DNA from: Mugil cephalus
Taxonomy: Eukaryota; Chordata; Actinopteri; Mugiliformes; Mugilidae
Direction of reading: 5' to 3'
DNA length: 64,000 nucleotides
NCBI RefSeq assembly: GCF_022458985.1
Contig: NC_061772.1
Location: 6,872,001-6,936,000 of the forward strand
Every line of letters begins with the position of its first letter. Position 1 is the first letter of the stretch. The notes below the pieces were generated by a model. That model did not search any database. It was not told the DNA's origin and saw only the letters and a program-made list of their open reading frames with translations. The position numbers were made by a program, and so were the translations under genes. Below, one piece after another: positions 4,557 to 63,820 of this stretch.

Positions 4557-7500
4557 CTACACCATGGAGGATAGCGTGTTCTCCTCGGGGCAGTGGCAAG
4601 GGGTCGATGTCCGTAAGGAGTGCATGGATGGCGGGGCACCCTCGCTGGGGGAAAGATCGTTGAGCTCCTCGGATGACGAGAGAGGGAACGAGGGTGACAA
4701 AGATATGCCTGAAGACGGGTCAGCAGACCCGGCAAAAGTGCGTGGGGGCTTGGGGACTAGATTAGGCTCCAGTGTTGCTCTGGCCAGAAGCTGTTTGTCA
4801 TCCAACCGCTGTCCATCTCCAAGACACTCACCTTGCCCAAAGGAGCCCCGGCCTGACTCGGACTCCCCGTCCGACAGTTCCAGAGGCGGTGAGCTGCTGC
4901 CGTCCAGTCTGAATAAAGAGTCTAAGTACTGGGCAAACTCCAGCACTGCCTGGCTGGGGTTCCCATTGGATAACTGTTGTGGAGGAGTAGAAGCTGCCGG
5001 TCTGATCTCTGCACTTAACTGTTTCTCTGCCATTTCCAACTCCCAGTCTTCGTTTTCTCTATCCATTGGTCTAGAGCCTAATTGTGGGCTTAGAGGAGCG
5101 TTAGGAGTGCTCCCTGGGCTGTAGACACCGGGTATCTGTTGGTCATCTCCATCAGGAAGTATTTTTGAGGTGGCATTAGGCTCTGGTTTGAAAGGCTGAG
5201 CCAGGGCACTCTGGTTCAGAAGAGCCGGGGAATGGTGTCCACTGAAGCGTGGTGTGGCAGGAGAAAGACGCATGGGGTAGTCTGGGGGGGATCTGGAATC
5301 CAGCGGGGTAAAGAAGGGCCCGACCTCACCCAGGTGCTCCGGCGTTGCCTGGCAGAGGCAGTCCGCAGCGAGTAGTTCAGTGCGAGAGCTGAGAGATGGG
5401 TTCTCCTCTGGGATTGGGGCATCCAAAGGGAACGGGAGACTGCCTAGCATTGGAGAACCCCTTAATGCAGCCGAGGAGCGTCGGGAATCCAGACTATAGA
5501 GGGACTCGGCGTCTGATAGACTCTCCATGACAGCCAGTGGTGCTTTGCGCTCCCTCAGCTCCACTGCAAGGCGCTCCCGCGCTCCACGCAGCACTACAGG
5601 CACTGGGGGAGGAGGGCACTCAGAGAAACCATCCAGAGAGATTTCCGATTGAGCACACGAACTAGAGGAGAGGAGAAGAACGGGTTGGAGAGTAGTGACA
5701 GGGAATGGAGTGGAGAGGGGATCCAAAACACAAAACAGACATGAGAAAATGGGTCAAAACGACTTACGAAAGGTTAAATAAGGGACACGTGGGAACACGT
5801 TAGTACCATATGTCAGTTCTACGGACTAGGTGAACACCATTACATGTTACATAGATGGAAGAAAAAAACAGAAACGGAGAGACTGGGAGGCCAGGAGTGT
5901 ATCCAACTGTAGCGCATGTATGCTCTTGTATTAACATCTAATACAGGAGGTAACATAATTCTACCAACACTACAAGGAGGTCACACTGGCTTTGGATGGG
6001 GGCTAAACCAGAGAGGACGAGGGGGAAACTGAATACTACCATACGTTGTAAGTGGTCTGTGGTCAGACAGCGTGCATGCGTGCATGAGAGAAGGGACATT
6101 ATGCAAAATTAGTATTGGCATGCTTTGCTTACCGTAACAAGTGTTTTTGTCTTTTTTTTTTTTTTTTTTTAAACAGAACAGACAGAAATGATAAATTTGA
6201 GAGAACAAAGTATCAGTTAGTAGCAGTAGTATTTCTTTTAGCACTAGCTACATATGTACGTTAAGATCAGCCATCTACATATGGAAAGCCCTAGAGTTTA
6301 GTGTGAGGTTTACTTCATTACATATTGAGGCAAGACTGCAAACTGGATATACTGTATATATATATATAAAAGATCAAACAGCTTTTTATATTCCTTTTGG
6401 CTCAAACACACCCACAGTTGTGCTTGGTGTACTAACCGAACACTACTGTTCCTGCGATGGTGGGTTGTAGGCGTCGGCTGCTGAGAGGTCGTTGATGTAT
6501 CCACGAACATCGTCTCTGGGTTCAAGTCCACTTCTGTGGGGCTCACCATGATCTTGGCTGCTGACAGCAAAGCAGTCTTCCCTTTGTTGTAGTTCTCCAG
6601 CACCTGTCACAAGCACAGAAGTACACACAGACACATGACTTGACAGGTACATGTACAGCTTGATAGCAGGGAGAATCTGGACTGGTAAGAATCAGTGAAA
6701 ACTATATAATCTCATACAGAATGAAAGCTAAGTGTGTTTTATTTATTTATTTTTTAAGTGTTTTCATCTTCTCAAAATTATTATATTCATAAAAACTGCT
6801 ACTTTTTCAAATATAACTAATTCATATCCCCACTGTCTTATTTAATTTCTACTATTCTCAAAAAACTAAACGTACAGGGATCTCATTTAACTGGCAAATA
6901 TAGTCAACACAATTTTTTTTTTTAAATTAAGTCAGCTTTATGTGAACATCAGGGATTAAATCCACAAGACAATAATAGTTTGGGAATGCATCATGAAAAC
7001 ACAATGTCAGTTTTCAGCCGTATTCACTTGTGTCACTTATCAAGCGACAATTCACTGTTGTTTCAAGTATAATATCCAAGTAACCACTACAACTGCATTC
7101 AACAGCGCATGCAGAGCGAATGCATCTCTTAATATAGTGTTACAAAACTGTGTAGTTCAGATAAATGTAAGTGCAATCTATCTGTGAGCTTACACCTACT
7201 CTGACTGATGTTAAACACCCACGGCAGAGTCATGAACTCTGAGCAAAAACTACGCAAGACCTACATTACACCTATGATAAAGACTAAACTGTAAGAAAAA
7301 TGTATATGCAACCTAGAAAATCTTGCCCTACAAAATATAAATGTGAACAAAACAAAAGCCAATGGCAAATCACATCAGCACACAAATACATATATTTGGT
7401 TTACTTTAATGACTTAAAAACAGAGCAAATGATGATATAAAAACAGATGAATAGTGAGGGGATGTAAACACACTCATACAAACATATAATACTTGTGGCA

Positions 7501-10500
7501 ATGGACATGAATGATAAAACCACATGGAAAACAACATTAAAACCAAGAATGAATCTCTTACAGGCAGGTTTAGTACGTTTAAAATGAAACAAGAAACAAA
7601 CATGTTTGGGTTATGGATCACACATGAACATATGATGATGTTAATTGTGTGAGTGTGACCAATGACAAATAAACTATAAACAGCAAACACCAACATTATC
7701 AAACACATCACCTGCAATTTTATAGGCACAATGACTAACCAATAATAACAAAAAATATATACACATACGTTTACTAGCTCTACATCAAGCAATAATGTAA
7801 TGAATCTCCAATGGCCATGAATTTATGACATATATGCACAGTGGAAGATATTTATGATCTTATTAGTGACAGCCCTCTCCGTCCCACGTCAAGACATTTC
7901 TTTTTTTCTTTTCTTTTTAACATTTGTTAGACACATTTGTTCCCCGTTGTTACTTCATCTGTGGCTGATGAGTAATTGACACCTTCTTCAGGGGATTACG
8001 ACTGAGGAAAAGCTGAATATGTGCATTCAAACAGCAAAAAAAGACACTGAGCTGCAGCTCAAAAGCTGAAAACCCCAGCCAAGGAGGAAGAAAGAGCAGT
8101 TAATGTGGAAGAAATTAGGTTACCATGGAAACTTTGTGAATACAAAGAAAACTTGTTAGGTCAAGGAAAAGGGTTACAAAGTGCATGCCAAAGCACTTGA
8201 CCCAATGTTCTGAAGCTGAAAGAGGAAGAGAAAAGAGGGTTGAGGGTGTTGATTTCGGGAAAGCTGGATGACGAATGTCATTAACGAGACATAGAGATGC
8301 AGGTGGGTTTGGACTCATCCTGTAGGAATGTTAAAGCCATTTGAAGAGATTGCATACTCATTAACCTGCGCTGGATTTCAGCAGCTATTTATTGCTAGAA
8401 TTTACCACATCACCTTGTGGTTCCTACCTTTCCTGAGACACATTTTAATGGTTTCCAGTGGATTCGCCTGGAATTGTAACATCCAGCCAAAGGTTTATGT
8501 GCAAGTGGAAAGGCCACTAGTGCCAGCTGGAACGCCAAGGGAGGAGTTTTACCAGTTTTTTCTTGACTGCTAATGCATTTTGGCTGCTTGGGATCCTGTT
8601 TTTTTGTGGCCTCCTGCAGTGGAAGGATTGGAGTGCTTCCAACTCCTCTCTGATGACTTTAACTGTTGGTCGCAGTCTTTTCAGAAGGTCCTTACCCAAA
8701 GATTGACACAAAATCCTCATGCAAAACGTTTTTAATGTTGACCATCATTTTAGTCTGACCATTCAGTCCCAGTAAAACTGAATACAACTGAAGCATTTAT
8801 TTTATATTTATTCAAACTAGTAAGTGTGACCACAGAGGCTGAAGAGCGTCATGACTTACTATACAACAGAACCACAACCACTGTTTTGCAAAGAGCTATG
8901 TGACGCTACCATCTCGAGATGAGCGTTTTCTTTCTGAGTAGCGTTAGACTCATCAGCCAGGAATTCACAAATAGCAATTTCATCTTCACCGGGGTGAAAA
9001 ATGGGAGGTTCTGATTGGGTTTGCATTGGCGTGCATGACTCATTCTGAACTGGAAAAATTCCTGAAAGAGGCTTGGAAGGGCTGTTAGAAAGTGGAAGGA
9101 CAGACACCAAACATTGCTCAGAGGTAGAAGAACAGTCTGACAGAGGAGGAGGCTGAAGAACAGAATCTGCATCTGGAAAAGAGGTAGAAACAGGGACTGT
9201 CAAAGGAACAGAGGTAGCCCCAGAGTCTCTGAGGGAGGAAGAGCAAGACTGATCTTTGTGGGAGGTAGATGGAGAGTCAGAGGGAAGAGAACTATGGTTT
9301 AATTCTTTTTGAGAAGATCTGAACACAGTAGGACTGCTGGTAGGTTGACTGACTTCCAGTTCCTCTGATTCCGAGTTTTCCTGCTCAGACAGGGGACAAA
9401 ATGGTTCCAGTACCTGCAGAAACACCAGAGGTATCACACTACATACTAGGCATGGCACACATGAACACATTCTTCGTACACAGTGAACATACTTACATAC
9501 CTATTCAAGGTCCATCCATTAAGAGTCGTACAATATCAAGGAAAAACACACGGCAAAAAGGGGAAAACAAACCACACAGGAAAGTGCAAACCCCAAAGTG
9601 GATCCTTTACATGCAAATATACACGTTAACAATAACCCTTTCATTAAAATAGATGTTCAATGTCCGTGAAGAATATGCTCAAAAAGACCAGAGAAGACCA
9701 TGAAACCAACCACGGGTGAACAGTTCCCATGCTTTGAGACAGGAGCAATGTGGAGAAAACAAAAGGGATGGTAAGTTGTAGGTTAATGATGAGTCACATG
9801 CATAAATTAATGTTGGAGTCAGAGTTACACGGAACAAAAAAGAGTTCTTGACTAACACTGGAGCATACCAAAAAATAACTTTCCCCACATTTCACTGTAC
9901 CACTTACAGCCAGGAGTACATGTTATCACTCGCAACTGAAACCGTCTTTGTGACCTGATTTGTCCTTTTTACAGATTCTTTTGCATAACAATCTGCTGTT
10001 TGCACATGCCTATCTTGCACTAATTACCTCAATGTTATTCAATGACCCTAGCAATTTATATTATATTCAGATTTTTTTTTTTAATTCCCTGCCCACACTG
10101 TATATACTGAATGTGAGTGCTGTACATTCTTGTATATTTTGTACATTCTTTCAAATTTGATACTGTCTTTTATTGTTTCTTGTTTCATACCTAATTCTGT
10201 GCAACTGTGACAAGGTAGTTTCCCATACATGGGATAAATAAACATTGCCTTACGTCTTACGTGATAAATCTCCATTTGGTTGTGATAATCAACAGTCATG
10301 AGACATGTGGATTTAAAGGCCAGAAAGATGATGAATGGATCCTCTATCTTCAAAAGACATTTCTATCTTCCCTAGAAATGTCAAAGTTCTCAACCAACTG
10401 AAGGCTTGTCCATCTGTTAGTAATAATATGTTGAATGCACTGTAGTAAAATTATAGATTTATAGTTTTTACCAAATATAATATAAAAATAGATCTAAGAC

Positions 10501-13500
10501 TGTCTTTGATTTATTTATGACTTCAAATGTTAGTACAGTTAAATTTTCAGTTTACGTTGTTCTCGTCTAATCCCTCTTGACCTCACTACTGTCATTCACA
10601 TTATCAAAGTAGACAAACAAGATTTAAATTGTAAGATCAGTAAGCTTAGGAGATTCTTATGTAAATCTTTAACTAATACTGATGTTCTCCTTAGATCTAT
10701 TATAACTAACAAATATAACTACAGTTCAGCTGCTAAATAGTAGCTTTCATTTTTAAATAAAAAAAATAGTATACTCAGTCCCCCAGTGTTAGAAATCAAG
10801 AACATCTTTTCAGAGCCATTTCTTCATCATTTCAAAATATCCCCCAGAAAGAAATCAATCTGTGCGCACACAAATAAAACAGACCTTGTTGAGGCCCTCC
10901 ATCACCATGTGGGGCATGTGCTCGTTAAGCATGGCAGGCGAAATAATGACCTCATTGAAGGCTTTGTTGTCCCCCCACAGAGCCGAGTATGTTGGCTCTT
11001 CCTGGCCACAGCTGCAGAGCAGAGAAAGAGACGGATTGTCGATCACGGTGAAAACAAGTGAACTTTCATTTGCCTCAACATGTTTTACTCACAATACATC
11101 AGAAATATAATAAGACGTCAGAAAATATAATCATCTGGACTGTTTTAGCCTCGAGAGTAATAGTTTTGCTACAAAACGCCGGAACAGATGATCTGTAGAT
11201 TGAGGCAAAAATCTGATTTGGCAAATTATAGAATGACTCAAAGTGAAGCAAGGCAGGTTTATTTGTAAAGCACCTTGGAATGACAAGCGACTTAAGATGC
11301 AGTGGTAAAAGAGAACACAAATACGATGAGGAAAGTAGAAAATAGGACTAAGAATCATCATCACTTGACAGCTGTTCTTTTTTGTTCATCAGACATAAAG
11401 GCATAGTGCTACCAAAAAGAAAATCACTTTCACCTCTTGCACCAGCTGGCAGAGGGTGGAAAAGGATTGCACAGCTACTTGTTTTGTGTAATTGCTTGAC
11501 ACATGCAGTGACACTGCAGTGGCAGCGAGTTACCGAGGTCAGACTGCTCCACCTCCATGGGCTACCCTTAAGTTAAATGGAGATCTGCAATACTGCCATA
11601 AACTCTCGAGGGCTTCTTTCCTTTGATAGTGTACGAAGACTGCTGTAATCTGGATTACAGACCAGCTGATGTATGTATCCGCTAGCATATTCTGACAATC
11701 AGTAAAAAAAAACTTTTGTACTTCCAGCCATGACAGTATTTTATATTTATATTTTCCCCATAACACATTCCCAGACTGTAAAAAATATATAAAAAAATTG
11801 CATATTGGAGGAGTATAGAAAAAAAATATGATATGAGACTGCAACCAGATAAACCGGTCCGCGTGACACACTATAAACCCACACTGTCCCAAGTATTCAG
11901 CGATATACCTTTTCCCACTGGACTGCCAGTTCTTTTATGTCACAGGTGTGAAAAAAATGCGACAATCGCTTTGAGGTGTCCGCAAATCAGTTACACAAGC
12001 ACTCAGCCGATTGCGAGCTCCATTGTATGGTAACAAATGTACATTTCCCAAGAAGCTCAAACACGAAAAACAAGAACGCTTAATTTTTTTAATTGTTTTA
12101 ATCCGACCACAGCTTTCAAGTGAGTTTTCTTACCACGTCTCTGGAGGATGGTTGTGCACCACGTGGATGATCCTGCCTGGAGGGTAAAGGGGTGTGGAGG
12201 CTGACAGGGCAATACTGAGGTCACTGGGGTGCAGCCACAGGCGGCTGCTGGGCGGTGCTGTCGGCTGAGACTGAGGATCATCATCCTCTAGTGGAAGCTC
12301 TGATTTTGGGATACATTTAGTGCCTCCCGCAATGATCCTCCACTGTTGAAAAGAAAAATGTGTTGTTACGTAACTTTACATTGGCATCTAAATTTATCTT
12401 CTGTATGTTAGAAATTTTTCAGCAACAGCCAGGGGCTGCCTGGTTGGTGCTTTAACTACAGTAAAGATAACTCCAGTGATGTGGAAGGCAGTTTATTTTA
12501 ATTAGTCACTGCAAAACTTGGAACAGTGTACAGGCTCGTGATGCTACAAAGGCTTCTACTGCTTATTTTGATGGACAAAATTCAAATGTGTTGTGAATCT
12601 TGTGAGACTTTAATTATTCATTAATGTCTGCACAGAAGAGAAGTGTTTTGTCAGCAGTCCAGATATAACAGCTTTTATGCTTTCATAATACAAATGGTCT
12701 ACAGGTCTGATACCAAGAGTTTAAGTCACCTTTGGCTTGTTACTTTTTTGTAAGACTTCCAGAAGGTGGCGTCGGAAACCCTCCAGTTGTGACAGACCGA
12801 GCCTTTGAGAGATCAGATACTATTGTGATAATACTGCAGAAAAGTCAAGTTAACGTCAGTATAAGAAATTCTGTACAAGGGATACCTTGGCACCAGATCT
12901 TTTCCTAATACCACCGATGTGACAAACTCTTTGGAGTACTCCATGGCATCCTCACTGGGAAAATAAAAGTAAGAAAATGTGTTAAATCACGACATGCAGA
13001 GAGAGTACTGGATGAGAACCGAGGACAAAATGTACTTTCCAATGAACACCAATTCAAAAGTGCTTAAAAACACCAGAAACACACGTACAAATACTATAAT
13101 GCTTTACAGACTGTACATCTTTATACATTAAACATTTAAAATGTACGGTTTCTGGCCATTTTACATGGTACAGAAAGAATTGCTTTTATGAATAATAACC
13201 TTATAATAGCTTAGTCTGAGGAATGTTATGGCTAATTGAACGCTTTCAAATATAATACTATATTTATCTACTGTAGCTAGAGCGTACCCACATGGGAGTG
13301 GTATTTTACGCTAGAATAGCGTAAGTTATTTCTCCAATATAGGCATTGTAGGGACATTCAGCTGAAACGATTTTATTGTTAGCCACAATCATCTTATATC
13401 AGCAACAAATTAAATGTGTGAACGTTATTATTTGCAGATGAATGACCTTGATCATAAATAGCAAATTTTAAATGTATATATTCAAAGTTGGATAACAGAT

Positions 13501-16500
13501 TAAAGGACCAACATAAGTGGTGCTTGTGTTTTCCTTTCTTTTGCAACCATCTGGTGTCTTCTAAAAATTCCTTGTCTTGGTTTTAATGAAACACCAAAGG
13601 TACACTGCAGCATTTAGTTATCTCTTGGTATAAATCCTCTTCCTACATGATTTGCATATCAAACACGTTAATGCTGCATCCAGCTGTATGGCAGGGTGCT
13701 GGATAATGTCCAAGTATAGACAGACAAAATGAGAACAGGCAATTAAAATTACTGTGGGATCTAAAGCTTGTTTTTTCATAACCTTACTGGATAAGGGTCA
13801 TGTGGGAACAAGTCAAACAAACTATGTTTATAGTTGTTTCAAGTAAATCAACCTGATCGTCCCTGCTCTGTATACAGCTGGTCTGCTGCAATTTACAATT
13901 AAAATAGTGAATGCTGAATGAAATTATTTTAGGATTACTATTTTTCCCAAGCAGTTACTTCTGTGTCAGTTTCTAACTTCTGCACTACTAAAATTGCTGC
14001 CATGCTGACCTGTCAAGTTGCAGTTCACACTGATGTCTGGCCAGAATTCTGGTGATAACCAGGTTACCATTATATTGACATTTATAATTCCAGTGAATAC
14101 TTTCAAGCGAAAAATATGTTGTCTTCACTAAGGTGTGTAACTAAGACTGGGGTCTCCAATTCACAGTCTGACTAAATGGGAAATGATCATGACCTCTCCC
14201 TCTGTTCTCAAGTTACAGCGCTGAATGATGACCAGAAAAGTGTTTTTGCAGAGCATTATGATTTAACAGAGAAACTAACCTTTGAGCTTTTAGGTAAAAA
14301 GACTCATTGCTTCATTATTTTATCCAACGAGACATCTGTGTGAAGCTTTGCCACAATTAGCAGATAAATTCTCGTGAGGACAAAACGTGTTATGTAGGTG
14401 TACACAGGGAGCTTTGACCGTTAAAGCTGAATAAATTAATGAGTCTAAAAACTGTAAATGTCATGTCAGTGTTCGTGAGATATTGCTTCTACAAATGGGA
14501 CTGACAGACAAACAACCTGAAAACATAACATGTCCAGACCTGGCAGCTGCCAGGGTGGGGTTTATAAAAATGTCAAGAAGGAAAGATGACACATTGTTCA
14601 CACTGTCACATTTAATGTTCTGTGTAAATGCATGGGATTTATGTGACAGTGTGTCAAAACAGTCCTCCTACAAAATGTATTCAATCCAAAAGCCTGACCT
14701 TCTCTTTCAGCCCTATTTCATATACCCCTTAAACGAAGACTCACCTAAGAAGGCCACCAGGTGGAGAGTAAGAGTAGCAGTGAAGTGTTGGATATTCACG
14801 TCTCAGCAGGAAGGAGAGGATAGCAGCAGTGCCTGCACCAAGAGAGTGGCCAACTATCACCAGCCCGTAGTGCATGGTGCCCTTGTTCTGTGAGAAAGAG
14901 TCATTACGTGAGCACGCTGTTGTTAGACAGTGAAGATGGCCACATTAACAAATTCCTTCTACACCTTTTTATCACAAATTTGTTGTATACTCTAGGTGTA
15001 GGGTTATAGTAATGTTGCACAGCCAAGTACAGCCTTACATAAGGTACTATACTGGTGTCAATAAAAATTCTTCATCATCGCTGAGCCTGCCATTCTTTAC
15101 ACAGAATACTGAGTCACGTACCAAGTCTCTTCCAAAAGCTTGTGACAAGATCATTTCCTGCTCCAGTTTCTTCTTAATGTATTCTGCTGAGTAAACCATT
15201 CCCTGGTAGTAAAAAGAGAGGGACGGAGCCCGGTGAGAGAGACACACAATATGAACAGGAAGTTTGTTCATTAATCTCTAATTAAAACATCCATAATAAT
15301 TATCCAAACATTAAAGAGCTGAAATGACATTAGGGAATCTGTGACGCTCATTCAAACTGCACTATGAAGAGCAGATTAACGTAAAAGAGGAAATATCCCC
15401 GAGGACTGTACAGTGGAGAATGATATGAATTGTAGATCAGGTGTTTAATCTCGAACCTTGTGGCCAAGCCAGGTACCATGCTGCTCCTCCACAGGCAAAC
15501 GCTCAGAATCCCCCGTCAGATCCGTCAAGGCATCCTGATGCACACAAGACAAATTAAAAACTTAGGAGAATGCCCTGACGGTGTCAGGCATGTATACAAG
15601 CAAGTACTGAGTACCATTGTGAGTTACTGGAATGACAATTCAGCAAAACGGACTGATACAGTCCATTTAGGATGGACACACTTGTTTTCTTCCCTTTGAT
15701 TTTCGGTCAAATATCCAAAAGGTTTTTTCCCCAATTGAGATCTGATGTGCTTTCAAAGAGTTCCTTTTATTTTTTTGAGCAGTTTAGTACAAGTATGAAC
15801 AGTACAGGGATACTAATTTGACAGACTCGACATCTTAACTTGCTGAGATTGACTGAGTAGTTATTTATCTCCCAAAAGGCCTTTGTTCTAAAACCAAAAA
15901 TAATCTCTTTGATTCATCTCAAGCCCAGAGAACTACAGGATGCTTCTGAATTGCTTACATAAGGTCACATTTGTCTCAGAAGTAGCCAGTCATGTTTCCG
16001 CTCTATGTGTGCAGGGTGTGGGAGTCTGATGCATTAAACTGAGAATTTCACCTGCTCTGGACATGTTGGTGTTATGAGGCACCGAGAGGAGCAGGGTCAG
16101 TTAATGTTTCAAAGGGATTGAAGAAATACCATTATATATATAAAAAAAAACTATATAAGAAACATAAAAGTCACCTTTGGTGAAAGGGTTCCTCTGATAC
16201 TAATGACAACTTTCTTTTTCGCATGATCCACTGCCACAAAAAATGGGGTTTCGTAAACCTGTTGGAAGATGCAGATTGAAGCAGAGCAGAGGAGAAAAGA
16301 AACTAAGATGAAAATGTGAGCGGGGACATTAGGAGAAGAGTAAATACTTGTGTATCATAATTTCAACTGCTGCCAAAGCAGTTCTTTGAGTATTGTCAAC
16401 AAAACCTTACCAAACTTGGCACAGTGCACAGTCATGAAGAGAGAAGGAATTTATAGATGGAAACTCAGTGTTGGGTAGCCTCACAAAAGCTCTCTGCTTT

Positions 16501-19500: not shown

Positions 19501-20402
19501 GTTGCGCTGCCGTCGGCGAGTTGCTTTCAGTTTGACAAAAGTCCGACCCGTAGGATCGAAGGTGCACATGAGGGTAATGCAAACACTGAATATGACTAGC
19601 CAGTTGCATGCAACGATCCCTGCAGAAAATATCAAAACATTCAAGCATAAAAAAACAAACACACACAAAAACTTTTTATTTCAAATATTAATTCCCTAGT
19701 CCCCTTGAAATCCCCTCTCTCTCACTCACTCACCCAAAGCCAAGTTCTTGGCAGTGACATCAGAGCATGGCTGGTAGTACTGGACAAGCCAGGCAATTCC
19801 TACAATGGCATACACTAGCTCTACCAGCAGAATAGCTGGAGAGAGAACAAAAAGAGGGAGAACAGAGATCAATAGCTGCCCAATCAATATAAACGGTGTT
19901 CAGATCTTAACTAGAAACACAAAATGAAACCACATAACCACCACCTTCGACCCCAACGAGCATCAAGACACAGCCGTGTTTAAAAACAGAAGCGTCTTAC
20001 CTAGCCGTATATAAAGGACATACTGCACAGCTTCCCTGGGCTGTGTGTACAAAATGCTGCCCCTCATGCTCAACCACATGATGGCGCTCTCACATATCAG
20101 GCAGCTGACGAGGATGCCCAGGTACCCTCGGCCATGGTCCACTAGTGTTATGGAACAGGACTGTTCTGAGCCGTACGGGAGGCCGAACAGAACCACGGAC
20201 AGAACCACCAACCTGACGATGAAAGGCAAGCGTGAAGTGGAAGTTGTTCAGGTGAATTAGCTTCCTACAGAAATCTACAGATGAATTAAACAGTGGAAGA
20301 AACTCACCAGATGCAGTGTAATAAAAAAAGGAAGAGGGCGGGCAGCACCAAGTCATCACTGCCGACTGACCAGCGCCGCCGAAACATCACCATTCCAGGC
20401 AT
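4557..20402 (-). CDS. dagla: Diacylglycerol lipase alpha (sn1-specific), 19 coding exons
   Basis: Membrane serine lipase that makes the endocannabinoid 2-arachidonoylglycerol from diacylglycerol. Coding exons (5' to 3'): 20402-20308, 20212-20001, 19835-19734, 19619-19481, 19372-19285, 18653-18519, 18420-18343, 17998-17874, 17575-17425, 16258-16175, 15534-15457, 15202-15122, 14887-14745, 12954-12886, 12802-12730, 12342-12134, 11011-10885, 6603-6437, 5661-4557. They join in frame to 1086 aa (human about 1042). Start [17 protein letters not shown] is the family N-terminus. Four membrane spans lie in the first four exons. The nucleophile Ser471 is in GHSLGAG, Asp523 in VLGKDLVP, and the expected His is 652 in SPAMLNEH. 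The long Ser/Pro tail keeps a PPRTF Homer-binding type motif (1024-1028). The tail and the SADPSSGIS block indicate DAGLA rather than DAGLB. All junctions use GT/AG; the exon ending at 15457 has a weak GTTCGA donor. Confidence 0.96.
8796..8812 (-). terminator. Tandem intronic polyadenylation signals
   Basis: Two minus-strand AATAAA hexamers at 8807-8812 and 8796-8801, about 47-65 bases after the stop of the candidate alternative dagla exon. The placement fits an intronic poly(A) site for a short transcript. Such hexamers also occur by chance in AT-rich introns. Confidence 0.4.
8859..9413 (-). CDS. dagla: Candidate alternative dagla exon (184 aa, Ser-rich)
   Basis: A large open frame in the 4.3-kb intron between the exons at 11011-10885 and 6603-6437. 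It follows a good acceptor (TTTCTGCAG, first exon base 9413) in phase 0, exactly as the normal next exon does, and both begin with V-L-E. It reads 184 residues rich in Ser, Thr, Pro and Glu, like the normal tail, to a TAG at 8861-8859. The last bases overlap a strong donor, TATA|GTAAGT, leaving phase 2, the same as the normal exon. Two AATAAA signals follow within 65 bases. Used as a last exon it would give an 847-aa protein; used in place of 6603-6437 it would keep the frame. Possibly a chance open frame, but the combined signals argue otherwise. Not recognised from other species. Confidence 0.55.
   Translation of the reverse strand, partial: VLEPFCPLSEQENSESEELEVSQPTSSPTVFRSSQKELNHSSLPSDSPSTSHKDQSCSSSLRDSGATSVPLTVPVSTSFPDADSVLQPPPLSDCSSTSEQCLVSVLPLSNSPSKPLSGIFPVQNESCTPMQTQSEPPIFHPGEDEIAICEFLADESNATQKENAHLEMVASHSSLQNSGCGSVV
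16870..17180 (-). mobile_element. Degenerate reverse transcriptase fragment in dagla intron
   Basis: Minus-strand translation reads [20 protein letters not shown], resembling the 'GLRQGCxLSPxLFxxFMDR' block of non-LTR retrotransposon reverse transcriptases. A 'SSSV..GS.ALNIRSS' stretch follows, where 'GGLRISSLLFADD' would be expected. Only this short piece is legible. The catalytic FADD is not seen, so this is a dead fragment. Clade not assignable by eye. Confidence 0.45.
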
Positions 20403-59239: not shown

Positions 59240-62200
59240 TCAGTCCTGCCCCGGGTCCTTGGCAGGGCCGCCGTCCAGATAGATCTTGAGGGCCTTCTCC
59301 TTGCGTGGCGAGTAGCTGACACGGTGGCCCGTCTTGAGCAAGCGGCTGCTCTCCTTCTTCATTAGCTCATTGCGCTCATCCTCCGACAGCTCCAGAGGTT
59401 CCTCTGTGCTGTCCCTGCACGGACAAATATCACCGATACGTTGATCTCACATCACAAATGTGTCAAATTTAACTTCATATGCTGTTAGTAATTTTGGGAA
59501 CAATGAATGATATGAATGAAAAAATAGAGAATCTTTGAGTGAATTATTTTGTTTAATTAAAAGGCTGAATTAGTCTCATTAACAGATTTAAGTGTAAATT
59601 TTTTACTTAACAATATGGAGAAAAAAAAACATCAACAATATTGATAATATAGATGATAATAAGACCCAAGCTAGAAAAAGAAACTGTGCTAATTTAAGGC
59701 TACAGTGCAGCCATTGTACTTCAAAGAGTTATTTATAGTCCTTCTTGACCTGATGTTACATTATTTAAGCAAAATATAGAAAAGACCCAAGAGTCGACCT
59801 GTTCTTGAAGGACAGGACTCTTTCTTCTTTTTTTACCTGTAGAAGACCACAGCGCCATCATCGCAGATGTAAAGAGGCCACACATTAAGGGTTGACACCT
59901 TAGGATTCCAGTCCAAATCCTGATGGATCTCCAACACAGAAATATCACAAGGAAATGTTCCTCTACCCTGCAGAGAACCAACAGAGAGCTCATCAGTAAT
60001 GTAGCAGAAAGTTTTCATCATACCCTGTTGTAAGTAATTAATTCCTCATACCTTTGCAAACTCCAGGTTTTCAAGGGGAATCTCACTTATTTCACTGAGC
60101 TGTAAACAGAATACATAAATAAGCCACAAGAAAAGCTGTGTTGCTTAGAGCAATGAGTCTACAAAATGATCTCAATCGCACACCACAGGCGCCAAATGAA
60201 AACAGTGAAATCAGGTGACAGACGTACCTTCTCTTTCAGTTCTTCTACACTGCTGCTCTCCAGAATCACCTCCTGAAAGGGACCCAGCTTCATCGTAGCC
60301 GGACTCCATCTCCGAGTCAGAACTGCGAGCTGAGACATGGACTTCATCTTCTCTGGTTCTGAGAAACACACAGGACCATGGATCAATCAGATCAAACTTA
60401 AGCAGCTACTGGGCAAAAGCTTTAGGAGGAATCTGGATCTAGTTTCACCAATTACATTTATCTGTCTTGAGTTTTTCTGCCCAGAGCAACTCTAAATCTA
60501 GGCATAAGGTATAAAAACACAAATATAGTATTAAGACAACATTCTAACTAGTTTGAAAGAAACTCCAGATCATGTGTTACCATTAAGGACTTCCAGGAAA
60601 ACCTCCCAGTTGGAGGAAATGCTGATGTCTTCCTCATAGACATGGTAATCCAGAAACACTGTGCCTGGATTCTTCCAAGTCTTTTTCCTGAGACGAACCC
60701 TGAACCCCACACACGTACACAATTAGTTTTATACACGTACATTTCATTCATTTCATCTCTGTCAAACTTTGATCAGTGACTGATCTTACCTATCGATGCT
60801 GAGGTCAAGCTTACACTGCTCTTTCAACTGAGGGAGCAGCTCCTCTTTGGACTGTCTGACAGTCATACCCTTGGCAAATACCGTGTCCACAAGAAACTTG
60901 CAGGGCTAAAAAAAATTAAAAAATGATGACATACAACAGATTACTATATCTCAGATCACAAGAGTAAAGACCATCATGACAAGATTGACTCTGTCCTTAC
61001 CTCTGGTTCATTCACTAGTAGTTGGTACACTTTAACTCTGTATTCACCCTTTTTCAAGGCTCTTCCTAATCGAATGGTTATCTATGGAGAGTAATAAGTA
61101 TAACAAGTTATAGCTCAACTTCACTTCCACAAAAAATGCAGGAATGACATTAATAAATCCTGAACAACGCCGACCTTGTTATCGTCGGAGAACGACGAGA
61201 GTGTTTCATTGAGTCGTACACTCTCAAACTCCTGGTTGTTGGCGTAAACCCGGAACACCTTGAACTGGGTTGAGGTCACTCCTACGTAGGGCTCCAGGTT
61301 CTGTTTAAACGCTGCTAATGTTATTCTCTTGTCCACATGAACCACTAAACCTGAAGTAGAGCACAAGCAATGTCAATGTATCAGACTGAAGAAAAAACAA
61401 AAACTCGTGACTCTTGGTCACTTTTCTTTTGTGACAATAATTTAGATTATAGAACAATTTAAATTAAATGAGGGAGCAATTCAAGAAAACAATATATTAT
61501 TTGCACCTACGAAGATTACAAATGTACTTTGACGCAAATCAAACTAGTCAAGGACAACAAAACATTTATAACACGCTATAAATAAAAAGTGTATACATTT
61601 TTGTGCATCCCACGCAGAGTCATCTTGAGAACAAGGCTCCGCTCTGAAGTAAAGGTACTGAGCCTCTGCCTTGCTCTTTCCATTGTCGTCATACTCGCTG
61701 TCTGTTCCAGAGTCCTCTTCAGCCGTGTCCCAGGTCTCCTTTTTGCCCTCATGGGCTTTAGAGCGTCGGCTACTTGTGATGCTGTGCGAGTCTAGGCCAT
61801 TGGCCAGCTGGATGGGGCCGCTGTCTGCATTACACAGTGTATCACTACTGTGGCTGGAGCTCAGTATGTCACTGTCCACTGAGCTGGTGCTGCGGTCATT
61901 GTTCACCTCAGAGTCCGACCGCTCCTCACAAGCAAAGTGGTTCTCAGGGTCAGAGGCACCACCGCTGCCTGCAGGTGTGGCCCTGATCCGGTTTTCCAAC
62001 TCTCTGTTGTCTGCAGCCACACAGAGTGAAGAGTTTGAGTCAGCCTCTTGGGTTGGGGATTCGATATGTTCAAAGTCGCTGGCGTCAGAGCTTTTCTGGC
62101 TGTCACTGGTGCTGGAGCCCTGCTGCTGTTGTTGCTGCTGCTGCTGCTGCTGCAGAGACAGATTCTTTAACTTTTCTGTGCTCTCCTCCAGGATAGCCTC

Positions 62201-63820
62201 CACAGATTTCCTGTTACCCTTCGAGCCATCAAAGGGTGCATCAGAGTCACTCCCTACTTTTTGGCAAAGAGTTCTGTTGGCCAGGGTACCAGGAGACTGT
62301 TCAGGCAATAAGACCAACAGTCGGATCGTGTTCCCGTGACGATCCAACAGTTTCCACAAGAGCGAGTCAGTGAAAGCCACCTGATGATCTGTCAACTCTG
62401 AGCTCTCCACAAAAACCTAATGGAAAAAAACAAACCCACGTTAAAGTGGATTTTGACTGTGAAATGCTGCACAAATCTTTAACTGCAAATGGCAGCACAA
62501 CACAAGAAACACAGACAACATAATGAAGGGACCTTATTACTCCTGAAGAACCCCTCAGCTTTCAGTGTCTTGTTTGGGACGTAGAGGAGTCGGAGGTCAT
62601 TGTAGCAGCGCTCCAACACCACACGCATGGCTTCTGCAGACAGCCCAGTAGCCTGTAGAAAAACACACAATATGAAAACCTGATCTCACATTCTCATTCA
62701 ATGAACATGCATTTTACATAATTCTGCATAAATGGTCAAAGTAAAACACAATGAAAAAACTGAGAAGAGTAAAAACCTGTGCAATAAGCTGTTTGAATTC
62801 AGTGATCGTCTGGTTCAAGTACGCTCGAACACTGACTGGAGAGGCAATGGTCTCAGTCTTCAGATCAACAACATGAACCTTCACCATCACCTCTGTAGAA
62901 AAATCAGAACATACCCATACTGATAAAAAGCACCCAGTTTCCATGGTATTCTGATCCTCTAGACATCACTGTACGCTTGCTTGTAAACATTATCTCCAAG
63001 GCCAGGTCATTCCTAACTGTTATCACTAAATGTTTGACTTGAAAGTAGCAGATTACTGACCTCCAGGTTTGTAAGGCTGGAACACTTGCTCTGGCTTGCG
63101 CGTCTCTAGCAGCAAGTCAAACATGTAAGAGGACTTTACTCCTCCCAGCAGGAGGCCCATCGGTGTGTCCTCCTCACCCTCATATGAGCACTCCAAGTAT
63201 TCATGGAACTCATCATATTTTACCAAGCGACAGCAGTCCAGAGAGACGACTCCCTCCAGCTCCATCAGCTGAGGTACAGAAACACACAAAACAGATAGAT
63301 TTTATTTTTCTGTGTAATCATTTACTTGAAACGGTTTAGATTGATAAAACAAACCAACAAACCTTGTAGGCCATTTCGGTTGCTTCTCTCAGAGTTTTAT
63401 CCTTGTGCACTTCCAACTTGCTCTCCATCATCATCTTCACAGGATGCATGCAGAAAAGCTTGATCTGGTGATAAAGAGTATAGCATTACTAAAGGTAACC
63501 AAAAGGGGTAATGTATTAACTGATCCTTATTCAGATGCAGAACGGTGACCAAGTACCTTGCAAGTGTTGCGTTCAATCTCTCTCTGTCGCTTTTCTTGCT
63601 CTTCAGATTCTTTCTCTTTCTGAACCAAACTCTTTATGTGCTCTGGGAAGTCTTCTACAGCTAAATACTCTGAAGACAGAAAAAAAACAGTACACATTCA
63701 ATCGATTGGTGCGGGGAAACCTACAGGCAAAGACAATAAAATATTTAAATGAATAACTTCTTACTCGCATTCCTTGAGGGGTCTTTCAGTCTATAAATCA
63801 GCATATATGCATTTGTAGAG
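59240..63820 (-). CDS. usp47: Ubiquitin carboxyl-terminal hydrolase 47, C-terminal part (partial)
   Basis: Deubiquitinase acting on DNA polymerase beta and other targets; partial because its 5' part lies beyond the right edge. Exons: 63820-63765, 63669-63557, 63464-63363, 63268-63061, 62892-62777, 62652-62533, 62416-61597, 61350-61175, 61081-61001, 60905-60790, 60699-60581, 60358-60228, 60099-60052, 59967-59837, 59414-59240. They join in frame to about 836 residues, ending at the family C-terminus ([20 protein letters not shown], ending KDPGQD). [14 protein letters not shown] marks the end of the catalytic USP fold; the rest is the ubiquitin-like-domain region with YNDLRLLYV and [11 protein letters not shown]. 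The catalytic Cys and His boxes are outside the window. The 820-base exon holds an acidic Ser-rich stretch ([20 protein letters not shown]) and an 11-Gln run at 62120-62152. Confidence 0.95.
62120..62152 (-). repeat. usp47: Coding CAG repeat (polyglutamine) in usp47
   Basis: Eleven Gln codons, nine CAG and two CAA, in the disordered part of usp47 after LSL. The human protein, as I recall it, has about four Gln here. Confidence 0.85.

Follow-up and report, generated by a model that had tools for sequence, protein, structure and literature searches.

Does a long open reading frame within an intron of the dagla gene encode an alternative last exon, through which the animal could exchange the entire tail of DAGL-alpha, an enzyme that produces a messenger resembling cannabinoids? 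In the mammalian literature, this tail is regarded as the site of synaptic placement, via Homer, and of kinase control, via CaMKII. A preliminary description of this DNA had singled out a frame of 184 codons on account of its acceptor, phase, composition and trailing AATAAA signals. We followed up this proposal in the window, i.e., the whole stretch of 64,000 nucleotides that was analyzed (bases 6872001–6936000 of contig C3), and in the genome to which it belongs (635 Mb in 24 contigs). On balance, we lean with moderate conviction toward the view that dagla has here a genuine alternative last exon with coding function, probably one of recent origin or weak use, that would be included by skipped-terminal-exon splicing combined with intronic polyadenylation, a reading that is derived from sequence features.

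Results

The host gene lies on the minus strand, as do all features of the locus described below in window coordinates. Its exon pieces follow one another in order from position 20402 via the GHSLGAG motif (14851) to the sequence ...MVMEGLNK (10885). We take the gene to be dagla, going by the human sequence and the preliminary description; the exon that encodes the lipase serine motif GHSLGAG (14747–14881) helps in this identification, and the joined exon pieces match three lipase sequences in the PDB (best E value 3.9e-6). The exon preceding the junction under study (10885–11011) ends with ...MVMEGLNK in phase 0 at the donor AAG/gtctgt and is followed by an intron of 4281 bp (10884–6604). The normal next exon (6437–6603) starts with GTG CTG GAG AAC TAC, encoding VLENY, and includes ...NSSV, and the normal last coding exon (4557–5661) carries a PPxxF motif and ends with TLSSMV ahead of its stop codon. 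No second dagla copy was found in the genome, in which the tail exon matched only itself. The exons at the junction matched themselves and a single place on contig C16 (43% over 37 residues, E 0.001). On this contig, an exon encoding GHSLGAG and a gene end with a short tail look like daglb, and we call the gene by that name on the basis of its sequence features. A Lipase_3 family search of the genome retrieved C16 alone and missed dagla itself, and is thus insensitive to split exons.

The coding part of the candidate alternative last exon (8859–9413) consists of 184 codons and a TAG stop codon (8861–8859) and reads VLEPFCPL...SGCGSVV. Its coordinates, frame and sequence, including the translation into 184 residues, proved to be as originally described. 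A CAG acceptor at 9413 opens the frame with GTA CTG GAA. The proposed junction in phase 0 holds as well, the donor exon ending in this phase at 10885 just as it does for the normal exon at 6603, and translation bears out the V-L-E start common to the candidate (9413) and the normal next exon (6603). Among the 241 AG sites of the intron, V-L-E follows this one only. Splice sites were scored with a PWM; by this measure the candidate 3' splice site (tacctctggtgtttctgcag; 9414–9433) attains 9.1 and ranks sixth of the 241 AG sites, compared with 5.8 for the normal acceptor. Three of the five intron sites that outscore it are located inside the frame. Behind the stop codon, the two AATAAA poly(A) signals mentioned in the preliminary description are indeed present (8796–8812; 8812–8807 and 8801–8796), 47 and 58 bases past the stop.

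The surroundings of the candidate and normal acceptors (9383–9473 and 6573–6663) align over 35 columns with a score of 29, which was reached by 4 unrelated sites out of 2925 acceptor-like AG sites and by 1 of 500 shuffles. Judged from this alignment, the acceptor and the V-L-E start might derive from the normal acceptor through a small duplication, but since four unrelated sites score as high, this is suggestive only and should be taken as a hint. A local alignment between the first 200 nt of the candidate and the normal exon yielded only a 16-column match.

The frame could instead be a chance opening in TC-rich intron sequence, its acceptor, phase, V-L-E start and AATAAA signals being coincidental. 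When Markov introns were modeled on the remaining intron, the longest same-strand frame attained at least 184 codons in 2 (order 1) and 1 (order 2) of 1000 cases each, and 184-codon frames occurred in 0 and 2 of 500 introns modeled on the whole window. However, 72 and 340 of 1000 Markov introns contained such a frame if they were built from the frame's own composition, meaning that such a length is not unusual for sequence of this composition. Also in line with a chance origin, 180 kb of other genome sequence (18 stretches, both strands) harbor seven frames that span 184 codons or more from stop to stop, three of them in L023, a gene-like stretch. Since such frames arise in the own-composition simulations as well as in the 180-kb scan, frame length alone is weak evidence for coding and suggestive only. 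The downstream signals are likewise compatible with coincidence, as AATAAA lies within 60 nt of a random intron point in 7.7% of cases. The composition of the frame, on which the original proposal had also been built, departs from that of the AT-rich intron around it (GC 0.459 versus 0.359 in the rest of the intron), and its amino acid composition comes near that of the normal tail (cosine 0.926; among 137 random frames with a minimum of 100 codons, 3 were as close).

Three-base periodicity argues against a chance frame. The base-by-codon-position chi-square of the candidate frame amounts to 41.1, a value reached by 2 of the 1269 sliding windows (552 bp, step 50) across the 64 kb; the two lie around 62100, in an exon that presumably belongs to a gene resembling USP47. 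It was attained by none of the 5000 Markov copies generated per order (three orders), nor by any of 3000 frame-conditioned simulated copies in each of six settings. The large USP47-like exon (61544–62416, minus strand) has a run of glutamines. In the 18 other genome stretches of 10 kb each, 35 of 3402 sliding windows reached 41.1, namely 20 in L023, 8 in L017 and 7 in L008. While L023 and L017 have long open frames and a high GC3 and are exon-like, L008:7500–8400 resembles a degraded or imperfect GTT/GTC trinucleotide repeat, whose chi-square of up to 65 mimics coding periodicity. Because this repeat-like stretch reaches the value of the candidate, periodicity alone can mislead. In the candidate frame, no tandem repeat was found, and its lag-3k self-similarity excess is 0.024, versus 0.189 in the L008 repeat; a degraded trinucleotide repeat was thereby rejected as the source of the periodicity.

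The periodic signal is also coherent along the frame. Its two halves share the same phase (r 0.93; −0.29 and −0.63 when shifted), with corresponding values of 0.48 for the USP47-like exon, 0.55 for the dagla last exon, and 0.21 and −0.23 for two intron parts. In a held-out test, frequencies from the middle 336 nt of the frame were set against a reference of identical composition that lacked periodicity. Here, the inner flanks preferred frame 0 over the other two frames (0.9 versus −7.9 and −5.1; 4.5 versus −9.9 and −7.6) but the outer flanks were rejected by the periodic model (−7.0 for 9521–9414, and −10.3), with 9389–8919 as the best periodic segment. The shared phase, this confinement to the inner flanks and the lack of a tandem repeat are difficult to reconcile with a frame that is open by chance. 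With plain intron composition as the reference, the inner flanks came out neutral (−0.6, −0.4), and only 9290–8916 was left as the best segment. Moreover, the periodicity is uneven across quarters, which speaks for a chance frame: the chi-square values are 5.9, 19.8, 6.2 and 19.6, such that the first and third quarters are weak, and with them the first 138 nt past the acceptor. Omission of TCT codons lowered the overall value to 28.2, of TCT plus CCT codons to 21.5, and of five Ser/Pro codons to 36.3.

Codon usage points in the opposite direction, toward chance, in that it differs from that of the known exons tested. Relative to a small and GC3-rich table of 3815 codons, taken from 10 receptor exons and 4 window stretches, frame 0 scored −33.7 (synonymous part −35.7), compared with −17.3 and −12.4 for the other forward frames, and it fell below two of the three reverse frames too. 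Per codon, 69 of the 137 random frames with 100 codons or more equalled or exceeded the candidate. Its GC3 of 0.35 is close to the 0.36 of the intron, whereas three dagla exons in the window have values of 0.56, 0.69 and 0.74; GC at codon positions 1 and 2 is 0.51 versus 0.35 at position 3, with intron parts being flat in this respect. With its negative score against the 3815-codon table and its GC3 of 0.35, the candidate is unlike a typical constitutive exon of this genome, and codon usage and low third-position GC speak against its being one. The low GC3 may reflect selection on residues without synonymous selection or biased conversion, as would fit an exon that is young or seldom used, but it may equally count against coding function. 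Weighing these findings against the periodicity, we regard a chance frame as an unlikely explanation, though one to be taken seriously.

At its end, the candidate exon contains a donor-like site that is absent from the preliminary description, TATA/GTAAGTC (8853–8863), in which GTAAGT starts at 8859, the final base of the stop codon, and for which the last exonic base would be 8860. It is one of three GTAAGT sequences in the intron and, with a score of 6.4, ranks ninth of 303 GT sites, above the dagla donors at 10885 (5.3) and 6437 (4.7). This exact position and this score would fit an internal or bipartite exon that uses the site as a donor and is spliced to 6603. The TA at the end of such an exon and the G at the start of the next would together rebuild the TAG, leaving the protein unchanged; with the stop codon now upstream of the 6437 to 5661 junction, the spliced-on mRNA could be a target of nonsense-mediated decay. 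Several features tell against it: positions −1 and −2 of the site are A and T, two AATAAA signals follow directly downstream, GTAAGT can stem from a double stop, and a poison exon has no need of a 184-codon frame. We thus consider an internal exon improbable. A double stop, TAG TAA, does overlap GTAAGT at the exon end, and the latter may perhaps be a by-product of it. Polyadenylation past 8801 and the donor at 8859, if used, may compete with each other, as splicing and polyadenylation do at the IgM terminal exon.

The open frame extends upstream of the acceptor to 9500, where an ATG is found, as one might expect if it encoded the product of an independent gene nested in the intron, or of a retrocopy there, without being joined to dagla. 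Yet the periodic model is rejected in just this upstream part (9521–9414), and past the acceptor the first Met is residue 130 of 184. In addition, no parent copy was found in the genome: in a DNA search that skips very common words, the candidate matched only itself, and in a protein search of the genome with the candidate tail the next two matches had E values of just 0.3 and 0.7. Nor did Pfam reveal a domain in the 213-residue open frame, or PHROGs and the PDB a match to the 184 residues. An independent gene is accordingly very improbable. Given that these searches found no related copy in the genome, an exon derived from a transposon or retrocopy was rejected. Rfam detected no structured RNA at gathering scores across 6500–11100, and 19 stretches fitted a pattern in a search for viral relatives, none of which was confirmed.

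Compared with the normal DAGL-alpha tail, which comprises about 423 residues according to the exon boundaries (6603–6437 plus 5661–4557), the new tail would have 184. Both are rich in Ser, Thr, Pro and Glu (share 0.47 in the new and 0.40 in the normal tail), start with V-L-E and end with a class I PDZ-type S-x-V, which is S-V-V in the new tail. PPxxF motifs are of the Homer type and RxxS/T motifs of the CaMKII type; the new tail contains neither of them and no Tyr, whereas the 420 residues scanned of the normal tail contain one PPxxF, four RxxS/T and five Tyr. Without PPxxF (Homer EVH1 type) and RxxS/T, the candidate was rejected as a copy of the normal tail. A DSGATS stretch in the new tail fits the DSGxxS pattern, which corresponds to a degron of the beta-TrCP type. 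The AlphaFold2 single-sequence model of the tail had a mean pLDDT of 45, bearing in mind that alignment-free models of this kind are often poor, and DSSP gave nothing; with this model and its Ser/Pro/Glu-rich composition, the new tail is probably disordered. The normal tail of this animal ends with SSMV (4557–4580), which is of the class I PDZ type; the end of human DAGLA differs from it.

Discussion

The proposal of a real coding alternative last exon fared well in one part and less well in another. The periodicity, the acceptor score of 9.1 versus 5.8 and the failure to find a second copy in the genome make the frame more likely coding, but its codon usage and GC3 set it apart from a typical constitutive exon, which is why we favor a young or weakly used exon. 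According to this model, some cells would splice from 10885 to 9413 in place of 6603, and the transcript would be cleaved about 10–30 nt past 8801, which is the usual distance from a poly(A) signal to the cleavage site. The shared donor AAG/gtctgt, with a score of 5.3, falls short of a strong site, which makes weak, regulated splicing plausible. The resulting DAGL-alpha product would keep its membrane and lipase parts and carry the 184-residue tail instead of the normal one. Because the new tail is devoid of PPxxF and RxxS/T, we expect the enzyme to be released from its postsynaptic Homer anchor and from control by CaMKII through sites in the tail.

A more far-reaching idea, which we put forward only tentatively and consider doubtful at present, is that this animal, and perhaps many fish, switches the whole DAGL-alpha tail via the choice of last exon, giving up the Homer anchor and the CaMKII-type sites and gaining the DSGxxS motif and the S-V-V end. 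If so, splicing and polyadenylation would determine where 2-AG is made and how long its synthesis lasts. A naturally occurring isoform with an intact enzyme and an exchanged tail would allow the function of the tail to be tested directly, and it would also serve as a marker in studies with RNA or antibodies. Should the exon turn out to be unused, on the other hand, it would be a good example of how sequence alone can mislead, and L008 is in any case a warning for gene calls based on periodicity.

In the open-licence literature on isoforms and splicing, fish dagla and tail regulation, we recognized no alternative DAGLA tail among the matches listed, although such an isoform may be annotated in sequence databases. 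The available portions of five articles (PMC3433705, PMC4116436, PMC9663203, PMC8615865, PMC6753062) contain neither an alternative DAGLA tail nor support for the Homer and CaMKII roles. Drosophila inaE bears a likeness to the present case as a diacylglycerol lipase gene with long and short products: its isoforms of 2214 nt and 1935 nt led to similar outcomes when either was overexpressed, and the available part of that article is silent on which part differs between them (PMC4116436).

With skipped-terminal-exon alternative last exons that employ intronic polyadenylation, the dagla candidate shares an intronic acceptor, an in-phase frame with a stop codon and poly(A) signals close by. Alternative last exons are a common, everyday mechanism; relative to them in general, the present candidate stands out by the donor-like site at its stop codon. 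A layout with a short tail also exists in DAGL-beta. The protein of the C16 daglb gene likewise consists of a lipase core and a short tail, in this case of about 22 residues (LTVDKPYSLCPSSSNNSQHNAI), which by eye is unlike the 184-residue candidate tail, and it is to this layout that the tail-swapped DAGL-alpha enzyme would come closer.
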